Of a DNA stretch of 64,000 nt, positions 1-11,162 are shown in pieces. Positions within the stretch are counted from its first letter, which is position 1. Each line of letters begins with the position of its first letter. The notes beneath the pieces are model-generated. The model was not told the origin of the DNA, did not search any database, and saw nothing but the letters and a program-made list of their open reading frames with translations. The position numbers were made by a program, and so were the translations under genes. The DNA is from Tubulanus polymorphus (lineage: Eukaryota; Nemertea; Palaeonemertea; Tubulaniformes; Tubulanidae): positions 62,001 to 126,000 of the forward strand of contig NC_134028.1 in the NCBI RefSeq assembly GCF_964204645.1, written 5' to 3'.

Positions 1-2
1 AT

Positions 3-2399
3 GCTTCTCTGATTTCTTCCATTTCCAGGTCCGACGAACACGAAGAACCGGCACCAAACCAAGCGCGACGCGATCCGGTCACCGCTCTCGGGAGCCCGGT
101 GGTCAACCTCACACGTTCACTCCGCCTAAGTCCGGCGCAACATCAGCTACTCCGAAAGGGCCTCACTTATTGCCCGACTCCAAAAATCGGTTCTGATGCC
201 GCCGCGACCGAGCGCACCAAGGGAGTGTGCCGATTCAACCGGCTAGTGAAACTCGACCATCACTTCCGAGACAAACCGGACCGCGAGGCTCCGCGTTTCC
301 GTCTGCCCAGCAGTTGGGCTCCGGATGAAATAGAACCAGTAATCGCCGGGTTCTGCAACGACGCGCACGAATTGGCTCAACAAACCAGGGATACGCGTCG
401 CGTAAATGATAACCTCACTAAACAGGAACGCGAAGCCCTCCAGCAGCTGCGTGACAACACTAATATTGTCATCAAAGCCGCCGATAAGGGTTCCGCTACG
501 GTTATCATGGACCGCGACGACTACGTCCTCGAAGCCATGCGCCAACTAGCCGATCTCGAGTATTATCAGCCGCTGCAGCAACCGATCTTCGAACAGACCG
601 GGGAAGAAATTCGCGAAATCATCGAAAATATGGCTCGACGAAAAATCATCCCGCTAAAAACCGCCGAATATCTATTACCGCCCGATAATCCGAAACAGAG
701 GCAGTTCTATCTGCTTCCCAAAATCCATAAAGAACGCGAGAAGTGGACGGTACCCGATCGCGTACCGCCGGGGAGACCGATCGTCTCCGACTGCGGCTCC
801 GAAACCTACGAAATTTCGGAATGGATCGACTACTATTTGCAGCCGATCGCCCGCGGTCACCCGTCGTACGTCAAAGATACCAACCACTTTCTAGATATTT
901 TGGCCGGTAAACAATTTAGCGCCGATGCGTTACTCGTCACCATGGACATCGATTCGCTCTACACCAACATCCCCCACGAAGAGGGTATCGCCAGCATCCG
1001 ACAAGCTCTCCGAGATAACCCGAACCCGGGACGCCCGGATGCCGAGCTGCTGAAACTACTCGAAATCAGCCTGAAGAAAAATGACTTTAACTTTAACGAA
1101 AACACATATTTACAGGTAAAAGGTACCGCAATGGGTAAGCGTTTTGCTCCTTCTTATGCCAATATCTTTGTAGCCGAATGGGAAAAAGAAGGTCTGTCCA
1201 GAAGCGAACTCCAACCATCGCTATACGCTCGGTTCATCGACGACATCTACATAGTTTGGGAACACGGCCGCGAAACGTTGATGCAATTCATCGACGTCCT
1301 ACAAACAGTGAGCCGATCCATCAAACTCAAGTTCGAAATCAGCGACACCAGCGTCAACTTCCTGGACGTAACCACCTTCAAAGGCCCGCGATTCGAGACA
1401 AGTGGCACAGTAGACACCAAAGTCTACTTCAAACCAACCGATTCGCATCAATTACTACATCGATCCTCGTTTCACCCTAAACACACATTTTCCGGTATAG
1501 TTAAAAGTCAAATTCTCCGGTTCCGGCGCATCTGCAATAACGATTCGGACTTACACGCAGCGTCCGGAACCGTCCTTAAAGTACTCAGAGGTCGTGGCTA
1601 CAAAGACCGCGAACTGCGACACATCAAAAGCCAAGCTCTACGGCACCACGCCGAACGAGATCTACGAGAACAACAACGGGCCGACGAACCGCCGAAAAAG
1701 CGTTTACCGCTTATCTTACCTCACTCCGAAGCCAACCGAACCCTAGCCCGTAACATCCGAACCAGATTTACGGAACTGGCTACGGCCACCGGCCGGTCTG
1801 ACGAGGTAACCACGGTCACCGCCTACACCAAGCACAAGAGTCTCAAAGATCTCCTAACTTCGTCGCAGCTCAAACCCACGGAGCCACCCCCTCCCCGAGT
1901 CCCCTCTTCACCGCATCGTAACAGAAATACTTCCGTTGTTTCCAATTCTTCTATTTCCAGGTCTACTCAAAGAACTCCGTCAACCCGACGTCGAGGCACC
2001 GAGAAATGCAGAACACCGAGATGTCGTACGTGTCCACTCGTCCGAGAAACAACCGTTTGCCGCAGCCACAACAAAATGCACGCGATCCGCAGCACAATTA
2101 ATTGCGCGACCCGTGAAATTGTATACTGCATCGAATGCACCAAGTGCAACATGCTGTACGTCGGCCAAACCGGAATGTCTCTACGAGAACGCGTCACTCA
2201 TCACGTCTCACGCATCAGAACGAAGAATTCGACTCCAGTCTCGGACCACTTCAACCAAGTCGACCACACCCGCGAACACTTTCGGGTGTACGGTCTCCAA
2301 CACCTACCAGGCTCCACGAGACCGATCCGCGAAGCAGCCGAACAAGACTGGATACGACGACTCGACACGAACACGCCCCGAGGCATGAACGTCCCGTAG
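3..2399 (+). CDS. PLE reverse transcriptase with C-terminal GIY-YIG endonuclease, copy 1, 5' partial
   Basis: This frame encodes the polymerase/endonuclease that copies element RNA into DNA at a target end or nick. The frame is open to the window edge; the first alternative start is a GTG at 99, used here as residue 1, and it is probably not the true start. PLE signatures seen in order: the ADKGSATVIMDRDDY segment (~128-142), LPKIHK (206-211), motif A DIDSLYTNIP (Asp283), motif B GTAMGKRFAPSYANIF (342-357), motif C FIDD (379-382), and thumb region KPTDSHQLLHRSSFHP (445-460). A Cys cluster CRTPRCRTCP (637-646) follows. The GIY-YIG core is VYCI...LYVG (675-689), with Arg in LRER and Glu in REAAEQDWIRRL. 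No frameshift or internal stop is present, so it looks intact. Copy 2 carries His instead of Leu144 and Ala instead of Ser694. Confidence 0.95.
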   Translation, partial: ASLISSISRSDEHEEPAPNQARRDPVTALGSPVVNLTRSLRLSPAQHQLLRKGLTYCPTPKIGSDAAATERTKGVCRFNRLVKLDHHFRDKPDREAPRFRLPSSWAPDEIEPVIAGFCNDAHELAQQTRDTRRVNDNLTKQEREALQQLRDNTNIVIKAADKGSATVIMDRDDYVLEAMRQLADLEYYQPLQQPIFEQTGEEIREIIENMARRKIIPLKTAEYLLPPDNPKQRQFYLLPKIHKEREKWTVPDRVPPGRPIVSDCGSETYEISEWIDYYLQPIARGHPSYVKDTNHFLDILAGKQFSADALLVTMDIDSLYTNIPHEEGIASIRQALRDNPNPGRPDAELLKLLEISLKKNDFNFNENTYLQVKGTAMGKRFAPSYANIFVAEWEKEGLSRSELQPSLYARFIDDIYIVWEHGRETLMQFIDVLQTVSRSIKLKFEISDTSVNFLDVTTFKGPRFETSGTVDTKVYFKPTDSHQLLHRSSFHPKHTFSGIVKSQILRFRRICNNDSDLHAASGTVLKVLRGRGYKDRELRHIKSQALRHHAERDLREQQRADEPPKKRLPLILPHSEANRTLARNIRTRFTELATATGRSDEVTTVTAYTKHKSLKDLLTSSQLKPTEPPPPRVPSSPHRNRNTSVVSNSSISRSTQRTPSTRRRGTEKCRTPRCRTCPLVRETTVCRSHNKMHAIRSTINCATREIVYCIECTKCNMLYVGQTGMSLRERVTHHVSRIRTKNSTPVSDHFNQVDHTREHFRVYGLQHLPGSTRPIREAAEQDWIRRLDTNTPRGMNVP

Positions 2400-2520
2400 A
2401 CCGCCTCACTACAACAATTAACTCTCACTACTTTTTTACAGGGATAACCCGCTGCCCGTGCACTAGTGGGGTCTCCAAACCTTCGGTTTGGTCCCCTAAC
2501 CTCTATCTCTAAACCTAACC
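2400..2520 (+). other. 3' UTR and 3' terminus of PLE copy 1
   Basis: This is a short non-coding tail after the ORF2 stop. From 2419 it is repeated at 2564-2665 and at 8818-8919, which marks it as the conserved element terminus. It contains an acceptor-like TTTTTTACAG (to 2441), the palindrome CACTAGTG, a strong hairpin (2468-2496) and a gradual drift into telomere-like sequence (CCCCTAACC, then AAACCTAACC). No AATAAA polyadenylation signal is seen. Confidence 0.8.
2468..2496 (+). other. Conserved 3'-end RNA hairpin
   Basis: CCAAACC (2475-2481) pairs with GGTTTGG (2485-2491) around a TTC loop. GGGG (2468-2471) can then pair with CCCC (2493-2496) across a small asymmetric internal loop. The same hairpin occurs at 2613-2641 and 8867-8895. 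Its place just before the terminal C-rich repeats suggests a recognition structure for the element's reverse transcriptase; this is inference. Confidence 0.6.
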
Positions 2521-2567
2521 CTAACCCTAACCCTAACCCTAACCCTAACCCTAACCCTAACCCTAAC
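2514..2567 (+). repeat. Telomere-type (CCTAAC)9 array between PLE ends
   Basis: Nine exact copies of CCTAAC (TTAGGG on the minus strand) directly follow the 3' terminus of copy 1 and run into the next 3'-end copy. The strand places the C-rich sequence at the element's sense 3' end. That is the orientation expected if cDNA synthesis was primed from a TTAGGG overhang. Confidence 0.95.
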
Positions 2568-2665
2568 TCTCACTACTTTTTTACAGGGATAACCCGCTGC
2601 CCGTGCACTAGTGGGGTCTCCAAACCTTCGGTTTGGTCCCCTAACCTCTATCTCTAAACCTAACC
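2564..2665 (+). repeat. Second copy of PLE 3' terminus (possible pseudo-LTR or 5' end of copy 2)
   Basis: It repeats 2419-2520 at offset 145 and 8818-8919 at offset 6254, including the hairpin (2613-2641) and the AAACCTAACC ending. It is followed by TTAGCCCGTGCC, not by more telomere units. It is either a direct terminal repeat opening the full-length element, like the pseudo-LTR arrangement known in PLEs, or a severely 5'-truncated copy placed between two longer ones. Confidence 0.75.
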
Positions 2666-2942
2666 TTAGCCCGTGCCAGGTTTCCCTCGTAAATTATCTT
2701 AACTGATTAATTATTAATCATCAATCTATTTGCAGAATCATCCTCCGTCGCCTGAAGCAGAAACCCGCTCAGAGACAGAGTACAAAACAAACTCCAAGAT
2801 CACAAGCTCCACAGGAATCATCAACCTTTTATCTTTTAATTAGTTCTCTCTGCTTTACTTTGAAAACTCAATCGAAATTCAGTAAGTAAGAAGACAGACC
2901 AAATATCAGAAACAGTTAGAAAAATAAACAAAAGCGCGATAT

Positions 2943-3211
2943 CGGGAACCGAACCCTAACCGCTAGTACAGACTGGTTGCCTGTCCCAGGACGATAGAAA
3001 CCGGTAACCAGTCCACCGCTATTATCTATTTCGAAAATATGCGTCAGCACTGAGATTATATCATAGAAACACCCGAAAAGTATTTATTAATCTATTATAA
3101 ATTTAGAAAGAAAGGGAATCTAGAATAGGTAAGAATATACTCAATTACTAAAACGGCGCGCCTGATCGGGACTCGAACCCGCGGCACCCGAATTAAGCTC
3201 CGGAGAATACT
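2943..3211 (-). repeat. Tandem repeat unit 1 with antisense tRNA-like B box
   Basis: The unit starts at CGGGAACCG and aligns with the next unit over several blocks: ACCGCTAGTA, CCGGTAACC.GTCCACCGCT, GAAAATATGCGTC and AGAATAGGTAA. On the minus strand it carries GGTTCGAGTCC (3179-3169), an exact match to the tRNA B-box consensus, followed by GTTTT, a possible RNA polymerase III stop. No good A box or full cloverleaf can be drawn, so a tRNA-derived SINE-like fragment is likelier than a tRNA gene. Confidence 0.5.
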
Positions 3212-3514
3212 CGGGAACCGTACCCGCCGCTCCGAAATTAACCGCTAGTACTGACGGGTTGCCGGTGCCCCGCGTTAGATACCGGTAACCTGTCCACCGC
3301 TCTTATTTATTTTGAAAATATGCGTCGGCACTAAGATTATATCGTAGAAACATCTGAAAAGTACTATTGTATCCGTCAAAGATTCAGAATTAAAAGGAAT
3401 CCAGAATAGGTAAAAAACATTTAGAATAGAACTATTCAATTACTAAACGGCGCCTGGTCTGGACTCGAACCCGCGGCACCCTAATTAACCTCCGTTTAAT
3501 CTATAACGTTCGGT
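3212..3514 (-). repeat. Tandem repeat unit 2 with antisense tRNA-like B box
   Basis: This is a diverged direct copy of the preceding unit. The B-box match GGTTCGAGTCC lies on the minus strand at 3471-3461, 292 bp from the first one. It is flanked by the same CCGCGG and GGCGCC blocks. A third, degenerate unit appears to begin at 3515 (CGGGGACCTAACCCGCC). Confidence 0.5.
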
Positions 3515-4571
3515 CGGGGACCTAACCCGCCACGTCCTAATTAACTATTATCGTATCTACGCGCCAACTCTTGGAACATACTCTATATAGATCCGGGTGT
3601 CAAGTTTCAAATTTCTCTAAAACAGACAGTTTATTTTCGGATAACAATTCTAATGAGATCGCTCAAAAGTATTAGTAGCTATATTCAAAAACCGCACTAT
3701 AGGTTGTAGAAGTATAAGAAGTTTATAGGATAAATAATAGTCCACGGACATCAATCACTGTTTACGAGTCACTCATAATTAGTGACCGATCGGCCACCTG
3801 CGCCTCTTGACTAATTATCCGACTCAATTCTATACAAAATCGCAGTTACGACGCCTTCAAACTCATCAGTTTTTTTTCAAAGAAAACAGCCCAATATTCC
3901 CGATTCAAAAAGAGTTTTATACCCGCGCTCCGGTCTGAATATATTTGTCACATGTTCAAGTTCACATAGCTTTACTCGATCCTAATAACTCTAAATAAGC
4001 GTAGTTTATCTAATAGAATTATATTTAAGAACGTAGAATTAAAACAGACGTATTAGTAAGACATTTCTATCAAAACTCGTCACCCATAATTAGGGCTAAT
4101 TAACCACCCGCGCTCACTCAGTAATTTAGATCTTACGGGTTATAACTTCCTACTAAATCGCCGACGCCGCGCTGTCTAATTCATCCAATTTTCGGTAGAA
4201 TACCGCGTAGATATTTCAAAATCCGCTCTTAAAAGCTTTAGAATACGGAGAAAACTTGATTAACTAAGAACCGGATTTCACCATTTACGACTATTTAGTA
4301 TACACGCGTATATCGGAATACGCCTCGGCCGCGCACCGCTAATTAACGCATCTAAACTAATTAGGAATTAAGCAATTTTGAAACTGAACTCGGACATATT
4401 TCGAACATTCCGGTTCACGTATATTAATAATACATATTCTAGATTTCTCTTTATAGCAAACACTTTGAGTATTTATCAGGTTATATCGAAATAAACTTTT
4501 CAATTCTATATTAGACACGCCGTTCTTTAGATCTTTAGAACTATACATCAAAGCAAACTATTCAACAGCTA

Positions 4572-4704
4572 GATCAAGGGCCATAATTAGTGCTGTTTTC
4601 TAGTCACTCTGGATCAAAGGCATAATTAGTCAGACCCCTAGTTTGTCTATTAGCTTGATCACAGAAGTACAATTAGTCTAGATCACAAGGTCTCATATGG
4701 TCAC
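4572..4704 (+). repeat. Four imperfect GATCA...AATTAGT boxes upstream of promoter
   Basis: GATCA boxes start at 4572, 4612, 4657 and 4681. The first three are followed within about 20 nt by AATTAGT, and the fourth is degenerate. They lie 45-180 bp upstream of the TATA box, so they may be activator sites; this is inferred from position only. Confidence 0.45.
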
Positions 4705-4748
4705 TTAACTTCTAACTCAAATACTGTTCACTTGTTGCGCGCTGCGTG

Positions 4749-4780
4749 TATAAAAACCCGTGTCTAATCCTAGTTCAGCA
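4749..4780 (+). promoter_or_regulatory. TATA box and initiator-like site for ORF1
   Basis: TATAAAAA lies at 4749-4756 and an initiator-like TTCAGC at 4775-4780, with its A at 4777. The 28 nt spacing is normal for a TATA-directed RNA polymerase II start. Transcription from 4777 would leave only 3 nt before the first ATG (4780), so translation would probably begin at the in-frame ATG at 4831 (residue 18). Confidence 0.5.
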
Positions 4781-6342
4781 TGATTCCTGCACTGACACTG
4801 ACGAAGGCAACCTCGCCGAAATATCTGTCAATGGAGCGATCTACTCGAAAGAAGAAACGACCACCAGCTGAGAAGACCAGCGAGGGCGGAGGACGCCCTG
4901 AGCGACACCAGCAACCCGGGATGTCGCCGAAAACATATTATAGAGCTCTTCAAGTGGCGCACCACCTTGCCCAGTTGAGCTCTGGTCCGAAAGCGATTCG
5001 GAGGAAGAAGGACCATCTGAAGATGTTCCTGCGGCCGGCGGCTTGCACCGAAGCAGTAACGGTGCAGCTGCACGCTGCCGCGGACGTCTGGATGGAGACA
5101 GTTTCGAAAGAGCTGACCATCCATTACGCTGCCACATTTGTTCAGCTAATGGGTGATCCTCTGCCGGACTGTCTATCAGCACAGGATGTCGCCCTGACAT
5201 GGGCCCGGAGGAATTTCGGCTCCCGTCTGAGCCCCGGAACGATCCGGCTTTTCAACATCGCGCTGGATTTGCGGTCGAAATTCCGCGGTCAGGCTCTGTC
5301 TGACAAACTCAGAAATGTCCTATCTAACCCACCTTCTTCCCCTTCTCATTTCAGGTCACACCACCAGGAGGCACCCACGGAGCCGAAGATTCGTCCGCCG
5401 CCGAGACCGAGCCGGAAGATTCGAAAGCCCGCGACGCCGAGGACGCCTGCACCAACCGCAGCCGCGCCCGCCGCGCCCACAGCGCCTCCTTCTTTTTCTG
5501 ATTCCAGGTCACCGAGAAGCTACGCGGATGTCACCAGGACGCCACCAACCAGAATGGCGCCACCACCGAGAAGCCCGATGCCGACGCCGCCGCCGCCGCC
5601 ACCAAGAAGTCCGACGCCACCGAGAAGTCCGACGCCGCCGCCTCGAAACCCGACGCCGCCGCCGCCGCAGAGAACGCCGACCGCACCAACCAGCAGTCCG
5701 ACGCCGTCTCTCTCTTCTTCTCTTTCCAGCTCTCCGTCTCATTACAGGTCACCAGGGCGCCTACTGCCAGCGCGAAGTCCGACGCCAACACCGAGACCGA
5801 TGGCGCCCCAGGAAGTTCGCCGTCATCCGAAAACGGGTCGGAAGAAACAGGATTGGAGTCTGCCACCAACCCGGCGACCCATTCTGGTGATTGGTGACTC
5901 AAATCTGAGTAACATCACATCAAGCCGCCGTCCGGATGACGTCCAGATCGAGAGCTTCCCCGGCTGCAAGATAGCTCATCTCGCCGACCTGATCGATGCT
6001 GTACCGGAGCGCCGAGATCGCCCGGATACGGTGATCATCAGCGTCGGAATCAACAACCGCGACAACAACTTCGAAGCGACCGCCAAGAAGACCACACAGC
6101 GCCTGATCAACGCCGCAGTCAAGAAGTATCAGCACTCGTTCGTCCACTTCGTTCAACTCAACACGACCCGCGAACACCAGCAGTTCGCCCGGAAGTTCAA
6201 CGAATTCCTCGAGAATCACGACGACGTCACCGCGATACCACCCATCGATGATCGACGCTTCAGAGTTGTTGGAGACGGGATCCACTGGAACCGTGGTACA
6301 GCTAACACCCTGCTGGACCACTGGCTCAGTGGTTTAAACTAA
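4780..6342 (+). CDS. PLE ORF1: proline-rich protein with C-terminal SGNH/GDSL hydrolase
   Basis: The 520-residue ORF1 product has an N-terminal basic cluster RKKKRP (23-28, NLS-like) and a predicted helical region (~48-182) that I do not recognise. A Pro/Arg/Ser/Thr linker with repeated RSPTP units (~199-365) joins it to an SGNH hydrolase domain (~367-520). Family blocks seen: GDSN (Ser374), PGCK (Gly395), GINN (423-426) and DGIHW (Asp499, His502), so the catalytic set looks complete. SGNH/GDSL esterases are known in ORF1 of CR1-type LINEs and in rotifer Terminons; their role in retroelements is unclear. The annotated start is the first ATG, but Met18 (4831) is a good alternative given the TATA position. 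The stop directly follows a -1 slippery heptamer, and the ORF2 frame overlaps the end by 37 nt. Confidence 0.9.
   Translation: MIPALTLTKATSPKYLSMERSTRKKKRPPAEKTSEGGGRPERHQQPGMSPKTYYRALQVAHHLAQLSSGPKAIRRKKDHLKMFLRPAACTEAVTVQLHAAADVWMETVSKELTIHYAATFVQLMGDPLPDCLSAQDVALTWARRNFGSRLSPGTIRLFNIALDLRSKFRGQALSDKLRNVLSNPPSSPSHFRSHHQEAPTEPKIRPPPRPSRKIRKPATPRTPAPTAAAPAAPTAPPSFSDSRSPRSYADVTRTPPTRMAPPPRSPMPTPPPPPPRSPTPPRSPTPPPRNPTPPPPQRTPTAPTSSPTPSLSSSLSSSPSHYRSPGRLLPARSPTPTPRPMAPQEVRRHPKTGRKKQDWSLPPTRRPILVIGDSNLSNITSSRRPDDVQIESFPGCKIAHLADLIDAVPERRDRPDTVIISVGINNRDNNFEATAKKTTQRLINAAVKKYQHSFVHFVQLNTTREHQQFARKFNEFLENHDDVTAIPPIDDRRFRVVGDGIHWNRGTANTLLDHWLSGLN
5389..5874 (+). repeat. Proline-rich coding minisatellite in ORF1
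   Basis: GC-rich, low-complexity coding sequence is built of variants of CCGAGAAGTCCGACGCCG, giving RSPTP-like peptides. Three pyrimidine-rich tracts ending in CAG, two of them before GTCACC, interrupt it. It probably forms a disordered linker before the hydrolase domain. The length is likely to vary between element copies. Confidence 0.6.
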
Positions 6343-6369
6343 GTATTAGTGAGACCAACGGGTCCACTA
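6333..6369 (+). promoter_or_regulatory. -1 programmed ribosomal frameshift signal (ORF1 to ORF2)
   Basis: The heptamer T TTA AAC (6333-6339) is in phase with the last ORF1 codons and directly precedes its TAA stop. A 7 nt spacer (6340-6346) is followed by a 9 bp hairpin: 6347-6351 pairs with 6365-6369 and 6353-6356 with 6361-6364, with A6352 bulged and an AACG loop. A -1 slip resumes reading at CTA 6339, exactly in the ORF2 frame and open to 8798. Heptamer class, spacing and frame all match canonical -1 sites. Confidence 0.8.
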
Positions 6370-8798
6370 TTGGTGAGTTAAATCAACCGGAATTAACCAA
6401 TGCTTCTCTGATTTCTTCCATTTCCAGGTCCGACGAACACGAAGAACCGGCACCAAACCAAGCGCGACGCGATCCGGTCACCGCTCTCGGGAGCCCGGTG
6501 GTCAACCTCACACGTTCACTCCGCCTAAGTCCGGCGCAACATCAGCTACTCCGAAAGGGCCTCACTTATTGCCCGACTCCAAAAATCGGTTCTGATGCCG
6601 CCGCGACCGAGCGCACCAAGGGAGTGTGCCGATTCAACCGGCTAGTGAAACTCGACCATCACTTCCGAGACAAACCGGACCGCGAGGCTCCGCGTTTCCG
6701 TCTGCCCAGCAGTTGGGCTCCGGATGAAATAGAACCAGTAATCGCCGGGTTCTGCAACGACGCGCACGAATTGGCTCAACAAACCAGGGATACGCGTCGC
6801 GTAAATGATAACCTCACTAAACAGGAACGCGAAGCCCTCCAGCAGCTGCGTGACAACACTAATATTGTCATCAAAGCCGCCGATAAGGGTTCCGCTACGG
6901 TTATCATGGACCGCGACGACTACGTCCACGAAGCCATGCGCCAACTAGCCGATCTCGAGTATTATCAGCCGCTGCAGCAACCGATCTTCGAACAGACCGG
7001 GGAAGAAATTCGCGAAATCATCGAAAATATGGCTCGACGAAAAATCATCCCGCTAAAAACCGCCGAATATCTATTACCGCCCGATAATCCGAAACAGAGG
7101 CAGTTCTATCTGCTTCCCAAAATCCATAAAGAACGCGAGAAGTGGACGGTACCCGATCGCGTACCGCCGGGGAGACCGATCGTCTCCGACTGCGGCTCCG
7201 AAACCTACGAAATTTCGGAATGGATCGACTACTATTTGCAGCCGATCGCCCGCGGTCACCCGTCGTACGTCAAAGATACCAACCACTTTCTAGATATTTT
7301 GGCCGGTAAACAATTTAGCGCCGATGCGTTACTCGTCACCATGGACATCGATTCGCTCTACACCAACATCCCCCACGAAGAGGGTATCGCCAGCATCCGA
7401 CAAGCTCTCCGAGATAACCCGAACCCGGGACGCCCGGATGCCGAGCTGCTGAAACTACTCGAAATCAGCCTGAAGAAAAATGACTTTAACTTTAACGAAA
7501 ACACATATTTACAGGTAAAAGGTACCGCAATGGGTAAGCGTTTTGCTCCTTCTTATGCCAATATCTTTGTAGCCGAATGGGAAAAAGAAGGTCTGTCCAG
7601 AAGCGAACTCCAACCATCGCTATACGCTCGGTTCATCGACGACATCTACATAGTTTGGGAACACGGCCGCGAAACGTTGATGCAATTCATCGACGTCCTA
7701 CAAACAGTGAGCCGATCCATCAAACTCAAGTTCGAAATCAGCGACACCAGCGTCAACTTCCTGGACGTAACCACTTTCAAAGGCCCGCGATTCGAGACAA
7801 GTGGCACAGTAGACACCAAAGTCTACTTCAAACCAACCGATTCGCATCAATTACTACATCGATCCTCGTTTCACCCTAAACACACATTTTCCGGTATAGT
7901 TAAAAGTCAAATTCTCCGGTTCCGGCGCATCTGCAATAACGATTCGGACTTACACGCAGCGTCCGGAACCGTCCTTAAAGTACTCAGAGGTCGTGGCTAC
8001 AAAGACCGCGAACTGCGACACATCAAAAGCCAAGCTCTACGGCACCACGCCGAACGAGATCTACGAGAACAACAACGGGCCGACGAACCGCCGAAAAAGC
8101 GTTTACCGCTTATCTTACCTCACTCCGAAGCCAACCGAACCCTAGCCCGTAACATCCGAACCAGATTTACGGAACTGGCTACGGCCACCGGCCGGTCTGA
8201 CGAGGTAACCACGGTCACCGCCTACACCAAGCACAAGAGTCTCAAAGATCTCCTAACTTCGTCGCAGCTCAAACCCACGGAGCCACCCCCTCCCCGAGTC
8301 CCCTCTTCACCGCATCGTAACAGAAATACTTCCGTTGTTTCCAATTCTTCTATTTCCAGGTCTACTCAAAGAACTCCGTCAACCCGACGTCGAGGCACCG
8401 AGAAATGCAGAACACCGAGATGTCGTACGTGTCCACTCGTCCGAGAAACAACCGTTTGCCGCAGCCACAACAAAATGCACGCGATCCGCAGCACAATTAA
8501 TTGCGCGACCCGTGAAATTGTATACTGCATCGAATGCACCAAGTGCAACATGCTGTACGTCGGCCAAACCGGAATGGCTCTACGAGAACGCGTCACTCAT
8601 CACGTCTCACGCATCAGAACGAAGAATTCGACTCCAGTCTCGGACCACTTCAACCAAGTCGACCACACCCGCGAACACTTTCGGGTGTACGGTCTCCAAC
8701 ACCTACCAGGCTCCACGAGACCGATCCGCGAAGCAGCCGAACAAGACTGGATACGACGACTCGACACGAACACGCCCCGAGGCATGAACGTCCCGTAG
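6339..8798 (+). CDS. PLE ORF2: reverse transcriptase with GIY-YIG endonuclease, copy 2
   Basis: This is the intact second frame of the full-length element. It is open from 6306, overlaps ORF1 and has no ATG, GTG or TTG before the GTG at 6498. The first ATG falls at residue 137 (counted from that GTG), inside the conserved ADKGSATVIMDR segment. I therefore place the start at the -1 frameshift entry, giving 819 residues fused to the 520 of ORF1 (1339 in total). Domains in order: PLE N-terminal segment, RT with catalytic Asp283 and FIDD (379-382), thumb, basic Ser/Pro linker (~590-632), Cys cluster (637-646) and a GIY-YIG nuclease (~674-766) with its Arg and Glu residues retained. Compared with copy 1 it has His144 and Ala694. 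Alternatives are reinitiation or splicing, but the candidate 55 nt intron at 6373-6427 does not keep the frame. Confidence 0.93.
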   Translation, partial: LSISETNGSTIGELNQPELTNASLISSISRSDEHEEPAPNQARRDPVTALGSPVVNLTRSLRLSPAQHQLLRKGLTYCPTPKIGSDAAATERTKGVCRFNRLVKLDHHFRDKPDREAPRFRLPSSWAPDEIEPVIAGFCNDAHELAQQTRDTRRVNDNLTKQEREALQQLRDNTNIVIKAADKGSATVIMDRDDYVHEAMRQLADLEYYQPLQQPIFEQTGEEIREIIENMARRKIIPLKTAEYLLPPDNPKQRQFYLLPKIHKEREKWTVPDRVPPGRPIVSDCGSETYEISEWIDYYLQPIARGHPSYVKDTNHFLDILAGKQFSADALLVTMDIDSLYTNIPHEEGIASIRQALRDNPNPGRPDAELLKLLEISLKKNDFNFNENTYLQVKGTAMGKRFAPSYANIFVAEWEKEGLSRSELQPSLYARFIDDIYIVWEHGRETLMQFIDVLQTVSRSIKLKFEISDTSVNFLDVTTFKGPRFETSGTVDTKVYFKPTDSHQLLHRSSFHPKHTFSGIVKSQILRFRRICNNDSDLHAASGTVLKVLRGRGYKDRELRHIKSQALRHHAERDLREQQRADEPPKKRLPLILPHSEANRTLARNIRTRFTELATATGRSDEVTTVTAYTKHKSLKDLLTSSQLKPTEPPPPRVPSSPHRNRNTSVVSNSSISRSTQRTPSTRRRGTEKCRTPRCRTCPLVRETTVCRSHNKMHAIRSTINCATREIVYCIECTKCNMLYVGQTGMALRERVTHHVSRIRTKNSTPVSDHFNQVDHTREHFRVYGLQHLPGSTRPIREAAEQDWIRRLDTNTPRGMNVP

Positions 8799-8912
8799 AC
8801 CGCCTCACTACAACAATTAACTCTCACTACTTTTTTACAGGGATAACCCGCTGCCCGTGCACTAGTGGGGTCTCCAAACCTTCGGTTTGGTCCCCTAACC
8901 TCTATCTCTAAA
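8799..8912 (+). other. 3' UTR and 3' terminus of PLE copy 2
   Basis: It matches 2400-2513 without a visible difference, including the TTTTTTACAG tract and the hairpin (8867-8895). The short UTR leads straight into the telomere-type units, as in copy 1. Confidence 0.8.
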
Positions 8913-8934
8913 CCTAACCCTAACCCTAACCCTA
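8913..8934 (+). repeat. Telomere-type CCTAAC repeats at PLE/satellite junction
   Basis: Three full CCTAAC units plus CCTA join the element to satellite DNA. The last CCTA (8931-8934) also belongs to the satellite consensus ACCTATCTATTTG, so the junction has about 4 nt of microhomology. The orientation is the same as the array at 2514-2567. Confidence 0.85.
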
Positions 8935-8935
8935 T

Positions 8936-9037
8936 CTATTTGAAATCAGTTCAGTACACCCTAACCCATCAATTAAGATAGAATTCATCATCTTTAGGAC
9001 CCTATTTTGCAAGAAAAATCTGTATCTTTCAGTCCAT
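8936..9037 (+). repeat. Satellite monomer type A (reference copy)
   Basis: This is the first complete A monomer. Its diagnostic blocks are TACACCCTAACCCATCAATT, AGATAGAATTC (an EcoRI site) and TTTTGCAAGAAAAATCTG. It contains CCCTAACCC (8959-8967), equal to one and a half telomere repeats. A common variant has TAGAACTC instead of the EcoRI site. Another (A*) has CAATTTAG, which puts a stop in the otherwise open frame. Confidence 0.9.
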
Positions 9038-9139
9038 CTACTCGAAATCAGTTCAGTTTACCTTAACCTATCATTTCAGATCGAGTCCATCATCTTCAGG
9101 AGCATAAATAGCCAGAAAATTCTTAATCTTTCCACCTAT
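9038..9139 (+). repeat. Satellite monomer type B (reference copy)
   Basis: The first complete B monomer begins CTACTCGAAATC. Its diagnostic blocks are TTTACCTTAACCTATCATTT, CAGATCGAGTCC and AGGAGCATAAATAGCC. Variants start CTGCTCG or CTATTCG, or carry AATAACC or GCCACG; these mark particular higher-order repeats. Confidence 0.9.
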
Positions 9140-9241
9140 CTATTTGAAATCAGTTCAATACGCCTTAACACATCTTTTCAGATTGAATCCATCATCTTCA
9201 GAACCAAAAGCAGCCAGAAAATTCTTAATCTTTCAACCTAT
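9140..9241 (+). repeat. Satellite monomer type C (reference copy)
   Basis: The first complete C monomer has diagnostic blocks AATACGCCTTAACACATC and AGAACCAAAAGCAGCC. A frequent second form has CGCCTTAGCCCATC with GAGTCC or CAGTCC and AAAGGCAGCC. C is absent from the A-B dimers scattered through the array. Confidence 0.9.
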
Positions 9242-11162
9242 CTATTTGAAATCAGTTCAGTACACCCTAACCCATCAATTAAGATAGAATTCATCATCTT
9301 TAGGACCCTATTTTGCAAGAAAAATCTGTATCTTTCAGTCCATCTACTCGAAATCAGTTCAGTTTACCTTAACCTATCATTTCAGATCGAGTCCATCATC
9401 TTCAGGAGCATAAATAGCCAGAAAATTCTTAATCTTTCCACCTATCTATTTGAAATCAGTTCAATACGCCTTAGCCCATCTTTTCAGATTGAGTCCATCA
9501 TCTTCAGAACCAAAAGCAGCCGGAAAATTCTGATTCTTTCAACCTATCTATTTGAAATCAGTTCAGTACACCCTAACCCATCAATTAAGATAGAATTCAT
9601 CATCTTTAGGACCCTATTTTGCAAGAAAAATCTGTATCTTTCAGTCCATCTACTCGAAATCAGTTCAATTTACCTTAACCTATCATTTCAGATCGAGTCC
9701 ATCATCTTCAGGAGCATAAATAGCCAGATAATTCTTAATCTTTCCACCTATCTATTTGAAATCAGTTCAATACGCCTTAGCCCATCTTTTCAGATTGAGT
9801 CCATCATCTTCAGAACCAAAAGCAGCCAGAAAATTCTGATTCTTTCCACCTATCTATTTGAAATCAGTTCAGTTCACCCTAACTCATCAATTAAGATAGA
9901 ATTCATCATCTTTAGGACCCTATTTTGCAAGAAAAATCTGTATCTTTCAGTCCATCTACTCGAAATCAGTTCAGTTTACCTTAACCTATCATTTCAGATC
10001 GAGTCCATCATCTTCAGGAGCATAAATAGCCAGAAAATTCTTAATCTTTCCACCTATCTATTTGAAATCAGTTCAATACGCCTTAGCCCATCTTTTCAGA
10101 TTGAGTCCATCATCTTCAGAACCAAAGGCAGCCAGAAAATTCTGATTCTTTCCACCTATCTATTTGAAATCAGTTCAGTTTACCCTAACTCATCAATTAA
10201 GATAGAATTCATCATCTTTAGGACCCTATTTTGCAAGAAAAATCTGTATCTTTCAGTCCATCTACTCGAAATCAGTTCAGTTTACCTTAACCTATCATTT
10301 CAGATCGAGTCCATCATCTTCAGGAGCATAAATAACCAGAAAATTCTTAATCTTTCAACCTATCTGTTTGAAATCAGTTCAGTACACCCTAACCCATCAA
10401 TTAAGATAGAATTCATCATCTTTAGGACCCTATTTTGCAAGAAAAATCTGTATCTTTCAGTCCATCTACTCGAAATCAGTTCAGTTTACCTTAACCTATC
10501 ATTTCAGATCGAGTCCATCATCTTCAGGAGCATAAATAACCAGAAAATTCTTAATCTTTCCACCTATCTATTTGAAATCAGTTCAATACGCCTTAGCCCA
10601 TCTTTTCAGATTCAGTCCATCATCTTCAGAACCAAAGGCAGCCAGAAAATTCTTAATCTTTCCACCTATCTGTTTGAAATCAGTTCAGTTCACCCTAACC
10701 CATCAATTTAGATAGAATTCATCATCTTTAGGACCCTATTTTGCAAGAAAAACCTGTATCTTTCAGTCCATCTGCTCGAAATTAGTTCAGTTTACCTTAA
10801 CCTATCATTTCAGATCGAGTCCATCATCTTCAGGAGCATAAATAGCCAGAAAATTCTTAATCTTTCCACCTATCTATTTGAAATCAGTTCAATACGCCTT
10901 AGCCCATCTTTTCAGATTGAGTCCATCATCTTCAGAACCAAAGGCAGCCAGAAAATTCTGATTCTTTCCACCTATCTATTTGAAATCAGTTCAGTTCACC
11001 CTAACTCATCAATTAAGATAGAATTCATCATCTTTAGGACCCTATTTTGCAAGAAAAACCTGTATCTTTCAGTCCATCTGCTCGAAATCAGTTCAGTTTA
11101 CCTTAACCTATCATTTCAGATCGAGTCCATCATCTTCAGGAGCATAAATAGCCAGAAAATTC

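Follow-up and report, generated by a model that had tools for sequence, protein, structure and literature searches.

The window analysed here, a stretch of 64,000 nucleotides (nt) from the nemertean Tubulanus polymorphus (contig NC_134028.1, positions 62,001 to 126,000), hosts a Penelope-like element (PLE) with two open reading frames (ORFs; Table 1). ORF1 codes for a protein that ends in an esterase, and ORF2, which overlaps its 3' end in the -1 frame, codes for a reverse transcriptase (RT) followed by a GIY-YIG endonuclease (EN). We propose that this PLE, which lies in a telomeric array, makes its RT-endonuclease only as a C-terminal extension of the ORF1 esterase, through programmed -1 frameshifting at a slippery heptamer. 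We give this reading, which rests on sequence, a probability of about 85%.

Table 1. Features of the two-ORF element, in window coordinates
Feature	Position	Strand	Description
ORF1	4780..6342	+	520 amino acids, ATG 4780, stop 6340-6342; N-terminal half with Pro-rich linkers
ORF1 C-terminal SGNH/GDSL esterase	GDSN 5893-5904, D-x-x-H 6274-6285	+	
ORF2 frame (-1 relative to ORF1)	6306..8798	+	830 codons, Penelope-like RT and GIY-YIG EN
ORF1/ORF2 frame overlap	6306..6342	+	37 nt
Slippery heptamer T TTA AAC	6333..6339	+	in phase, TTA 6334-6336, AAC 6337-6339
7-nt spacer TAAGTAT	6340..6346	+	first triplet is the ORF1 stop TAA
9-base pair (bp) hairpin, bulged A 6352	6347..6369	+	candidate stimulatory structure
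TATAAAA	4749..4755	+	31 nt 5' of the ORF1 ATG
3' tail	8799..8930	+	UUCG-loop hairpin, telomere-like end CCTAACCCTAA

The GDSN and D-x-x-H residues of ORF1, which are of the SGNH type, are conserved across its relatives, and the only match of the ORF1 profile in PDB is 4c1b, an 'ORF1-encoded protein' (E 9e-7), which we take to be the zebrafish L2 esterase of a non-long terminal repeat (non-LTR) element of the CR1 clade. Both results support the initial annotation of this DNA, in which ORF1 had been called an esterase. The GDSL Pfam score of the window ORF1 is under the curated cut-off, and seven of 21 aligned ORF1 members match GDSL_2 at E <= 0.01. ORF2 matches RVT_1 (E 1.3e-7) and, at residues 738-819, GIY-YIG (E 8e-4, under the gathering score). 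RT and GIY-YIG are both carried by many of the 120 listed relatives. A NADAR domain lies upstream of the esterase in six of the 21 ORF1 members scanned (P0121, P0122, P0125, P0126, P0134 and P0138).

The junction between the two frames

The 3' end of ORF1 reads AGT GGT TTA AAC TAA, with the stop codon directly after the heptamer. The ORF2 frame opens 9 codons 5' of the heptamer and has no methionine in its first 200 codons, the first one lying 191 codons past the first heptamer codon. The hairpin stem is formed by UAGUG/A-bulge/GACC-AACG-GGUC/CACUA. The spacer of 7 nt is inside the range of about 5-9 nt expected at -1 frameshift sites. The initial annotation had described the in-phase heptamer at the end of ORF1, the spacer and singly bulged hairpin behind it, and an open -1 frame identical to ORF2 that lacks an ATG before its conserved domain; when the sequence was read again, each of these was found exactly where it had been placed.

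We measured how readily such a junction arises by chance, counting as slippery any in-phase X XXY YYZ in which Y is A or T and Z is not G. TTTAAAC is the sole such heptamer among the 518 positions of ORF1, and it occupies the last one. Its TTA codon is used for only one of the 37 leucines of the window ORF1, namely this one. In a synonymous shuffle of the last 12 ORF1 codons, with the protein sequence unchanged and codon frequencies taken from the ORF itself, a slippery heptamer appeared in 1.0% of trials. The fold of 6340-6390 has -13.8 kcal/mol, and 7 of 200 shuffles were equally good (z -2.25). The hairpin is statistically less secure than the heptamer.

Conservation in copies, families and relatives

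The element is abundant in the host genome. Its ORF2 is 97% identical, over 71% of its length, to an NCBI protein of Tubulanus polymorphus (P0001), and 48 of the 54 scored matches in an ORF2 search of the genome are full length and stop-free. With the DNA of 6200-6560 as query, 62 candidates were obtained, and each of the 40 that were scored is full length, with 99-100% identity. Heptamer and hairpin are identical in all 31 junctions read (30 loci, L005-L034), among which three single variants occur, at 6395, 6408 and 6416; the hairpin is thus invariant among these junctions and shows no covariation within the family. ORF1, read at a fixed offset from the junction, reaches its stop uninterrupted in 25 of 29 copies and contains stops in the other four; this count is without L025, where the upstream sequence is missing. 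ORF2 variants among 30 copies comprise 26 synonymous and 12 non-synonymous changes, with 24% synonymous expected (p 7e-9). Among more diverged copies, L036, L038 and L039 retain the heptamer. The alignment of L037 skips window 6235-6358, and its junction is therefore deleted.

Searches of the host genome with three relatives (P0025, P0082 and P0095) returned one clear second two-ORF family; as only the best candidates were scored, other families may have been missed. The same searches yielded C62 (L040), in which an RT ORF is present and no esterase was seen. The second family is represented by L035 (C4:47700-52400, at the same contig end) and by L041, identical to it over 801 nt. The esterase ORF of L035 is 5'-truncated beside CCCTAA repeats, with its N-terminal part in another frame, and ends in ..TANTLLNHWLETVKNE (..NHWLETVKNE). 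Its ORF2 frame has 820 codons, again in -1. The junction reads GTA AAA AAC GAA TAG, with a heptamer A AAA AAC (1761-1767) that the alignment puts at the homologous place and that is one of two in phase among the 512 positions of ORF1. The amino acids differ (VKNE in L035, GLN in the window), so that the slippery pattern is kept and the peptide is not.

More distant relatives readable as DNA came from a collection of genome contigs. A first scan of this collection with the window protein gave no relative, and an alignment-based scan gave four (L001-L004); viral contigs, plasmids and phages yielded none. L001 shares 38% RT identity with the window over the best segment, and its contig is filed under a bacterial assembly, although we infer that it is animal DNA. 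Its ORF1 ends in ..NHWISYLNFKAP* and carries T TTA AAC at 3119-3125, the sole in-phase heptamer among 614 positions, with ORF2 in the -1 frame. A strong hairpin different from that of the window starts 6 nt past the heptamer; its 50-nt fold has -22.4 kcal/mol, which 15 of 200 shuffles match or surpass, and over 75 nt z is -0.6. In each of the three heptamer families the ORF2 frame begins only a short way 5' of the heptamer, at 9, 20 and 21 codons. No upstream esterase ORF was seen by eye in the three-frame translations of L003 and L004.

Traces of the heptamer can also be sought in proteins, because TTTAAAC followed by T reads TTT AAA CT., or FKL, in the -1 frame. From 2,696 ORF2 relatives 120 were listed, and we took the 119 besides P0001; 13 of them have no recognised core motif, 45 have at least 31 residues upstream of the core, and the rest are too short. 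FK occurs 28-46 residues upstream of the core in 21 of these 45, compared with a background of 9.8% of windows, and in all 21 cases it is FKL. No methionine separates FKL from the core in 18 of the 21, where 14.4 are expected, which is a mild signal only. FKL proteins occur on either side of the midpoint root (support 0.997), so that the feature is either old or was gained repeatedly.

We examined the ORF1 ends in the same way, taking 24 and dropping two that have no anchor tryptophan (P0123 and P0137). A slippery heptamer is encodable within six positions after this tryptophan in 16 of the remaining 22, as compared with 21% of background windows, and TTTAAAC/T is encodable in nine; both counts include the window and L001, and the former also includes L035. 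In one relative, P0095, a single frame encodes both esterase and RT. Three others have QLN (P0127), IKL (P0070) and LKL (P0120) at the place of the heptamer, a protein reading that could reflect relaxed heptamers such as A or C UUAAAC.

Probable frameshifting and its alternatives

In the mechanism that we envisage, most ribosomes would read GGT TTA AAC, meet the TAA stop and release the 520-amino acid esterase protein. A smaller share would pause at the hairpin 7 nt further on, slip from UUA-AAC to UUU-AAA and continue translation in the -1 frame; their product would be a fusion of about 1339 amino acids with the predicted junction ..HWLSGLN-LSISETNG... From this arrangement we infer the slippage and its efficiency, a role for the hairpin and the importance of the product ratio. 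The junction is most likely a functional -1 frameshift site, and we consider the conservation of the heptamer across families to be the decisive argument for this assignment. Frameshifting is probably old in this PLE clade. With less assurance, we lean towards a scenario in which a large clade of esterase-bearing, EN-positive PLEs ancestrally made its RT by -1 frameshifting, the heptamers being interchangeable (U UUA AAC and A AAA AAC are the forms read in DNA), and in which stop/start overlap and in-frame fusion came later as replacements.

Several observations weigh against frameshifting. When the amino acids are held fixed, 22% of trials for L001 and 24% for L035 place a heptamer in the last 12 codons. 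Over 6340-6420 the window fold reaches a z of only -1.0, with 32 of 200 shuffles as good; hairpin shape differs between the window, L035 and L001; in L035 the structure is a weak hairpin of just 4 bp, 5 nt past its heptamer; and the older copies L036 and L038 carry a T to C change at 6347 that turns the outer U-A pair into C-A. As the shape of the stem varies between families, support is good for the heptamer and weak for the stem. The 30 copies used for the ORF2 variants were the best protein matches, which biases the selection test towards synonymous change. Both copies of the second family are probably not fully active, because ORF1 is 5'-truncated with a change of frame. Among the listed ORF2 N-termini, 24 of 45 have no FK, and seven of these 24 have another XXX-YYY pair, which is not above background (28.9%). 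Six of the 22 ORF1 ends, including that of L002, cannot encode a canonical heptamer after the tryptophan, and the junction of L002 has in its place ATGTTAG (at 1090), where the ATG of ORF2 overlaps the stop of ORF1.

The initial annotation had looked to related copies for conservation of both heptamer and stem. Of the two, a slippery heptamer does recur, at the homologous site in L035 and L001 and as FKL in 21 of the 45 protein relatives; conservation or covariation of the stem is not supported. It had also regarded relatives with no heptamer as evidence to the contrary. Some relatives are indeed of this kind, and the one that can be read as DNA, L002, has the ORF2 start on the ORF1 stop instead.

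An alternative is that splicing around the junction joins the two ORFs. PLEs keep introns, two possible splice sites follow the hairpin closely (a fair donor, TTG/GTGAGT, at 6373; a strong acceptor, TTTCCAG, at 6427), and P0001 begins with MAEPAPNQ, which suggests a predicted upstream exon. However, the intron defined by these two sites measures 55 nt, lies 3' of the ORF1 stop and would leave ORF2 out of frame, the region is retained in the 40 scored genomic matches, and copy L036 has lost the acceptor AG. We scored frame-compatible introns with donor weights that do not derive from this species; none of the eight best in each of three families keeps the esterase whole. We consider splicing quite unlikely.

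No more probable, in our judgement, is the separate translation of ORF2 by termination-reinitiation or from a non-AUG start near the junction. The stop/start overlap of L002 suggests that coupled reinitiation occurs in the wider group, and for several relatives the predicted start of ORF2 is of the MD.. type. The three heptamer families have no such AUG near the junction, where a non-AUG start could still serve: their first ORF2-frame methionines lie 191, 187 and 370 codons past the heptamer (window, L035 and L001, respectively), and reinitiation offers no reason for the conservation of XXXYYYZ, in two forms, at the homologous place. It is least probable of all that a conserved Leu-Asn C-terminus of ORF1 gave rise to the heptamer by chance and that ORF2 is untranslated here: Leu-Asn is common at this place among ORF1 relatives and codon choice alone yields the heptamer at 22-24% in two families, but the second family has a perfect heptamer with Lys-Asn, the window ORF1 has its only TTA at this site, and ORF2 copies show the synonymous excess.

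Known systems and the telomeric setting

U UUA AAC is the coronavirus site, and -1 frameshifting operates in the gag-pol of retroviruses and LTR retrotransposons. The element resembles these systems in having X XXY YYZ just before the ORF1 stop, a short spacer, a candidate downstream structure and a polymerase that is predicted to occur only as a fusion. It differs from them in that ORF1 is an SGNH esterase rather than a capsid, the polymerase is a PLE RT with GIY-YIG, and the shape of the hairpin is not conserved. The 4c1b element likewise has an esterase as the ORF1 of a retrotransposon, although it belongs to a different class of retroelements.

Among PLEs, the third class of eukaryotic retroelements, whose mobility is relatively little known (PMC11167929), the EN-positive Penelope/Poseidon type shares with the window element an RT with C-terminal GIY-YIG and tandem copies; that source describes it with one ORF, unlike the upstream esterase ORF linked in -1 found here. 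Athena/Terminon elements of bdelloid rotifers, as described in PMC6431247 and PMC5408684, are similar in their 3' telomeric repeats, their 5'-truncated head-to-tail arrays and, in some families, their GDSL esterase ORFs. They are EN-deficient and carry a hammerhead ribozyme, whereas the window element has GIY-YIG and no Rfam match. Because of the GIY-YIG in ORF2 we do not file the element as a Terminon. In the earlier view of PLEs, an element had a single ORF with EN or else two ORFs and no EN (PMC6431247); the window element has two ORFs with EN.

In a literature search of partial coverage we found no description of frameshifting in a Penelope-like element, and novelty is not settled by it. 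In the portions available, frameshifts are mentioned in PMC5408684 for the gag-pol of LTR elements and in PMC6431247 for decayed Burro copies, and no mention was found in PMC11167929. If the ancestral scenario is true, gag-pol-like dosage control would extend outside LTR elements and viruses. If the frameshift is conserved, the RT would be carried on the esterase as Pol is on Gag, which would open both the function of the esterase and the dosage of RT to direct tests.

The surroundings of the element are repetitive. Its 3' end is fixed in the copies read and is followed by CCCTAA repeats, 5'-truncated copies, satellite or the next full copy; head-to-tail arrays are present. This telomeric arrangement, in which the fixed 3' end carries the UUCG-loop hairpin and CCTAACCCTAA (window 8871-8930; L005-L034), is Terminon-like despite the GIY-YIG. 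Three 5'-truncated genomic copies (the units after L007, L034 and L020) have their first base at the ORF1 ATG or one position beyond it, 31 nt past TATAAAA, which suggests that transcription begins at the start codon. No Rfam match, including the hammerhead ribozyme, was found in window 1-9300 at E <= 1; this ribozyme is not known to be a universal feature of PLEs.

A satellite array of 102-bp units occupies window 8931-64000 (TRF to 14000, self-comparison to the window end). A mini copy consisting of the 109-nt element tail alone lies between two units at 2564-2672. The repeated GACTCGAACCCGC at 3158-3202 and 3450-3494 is B-box-like on the minus strand, and no transfer RNA genes were found within 2400-4800. 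Five polypyrimidine-CAG/GTC stretches, at 5354, 5507, 5747, 6427 and ~8362, resemble 3' splice sites, and in all five AGG falls in frame as a codon (motif RS); ORF1 and ORF2 both carry such stretches.

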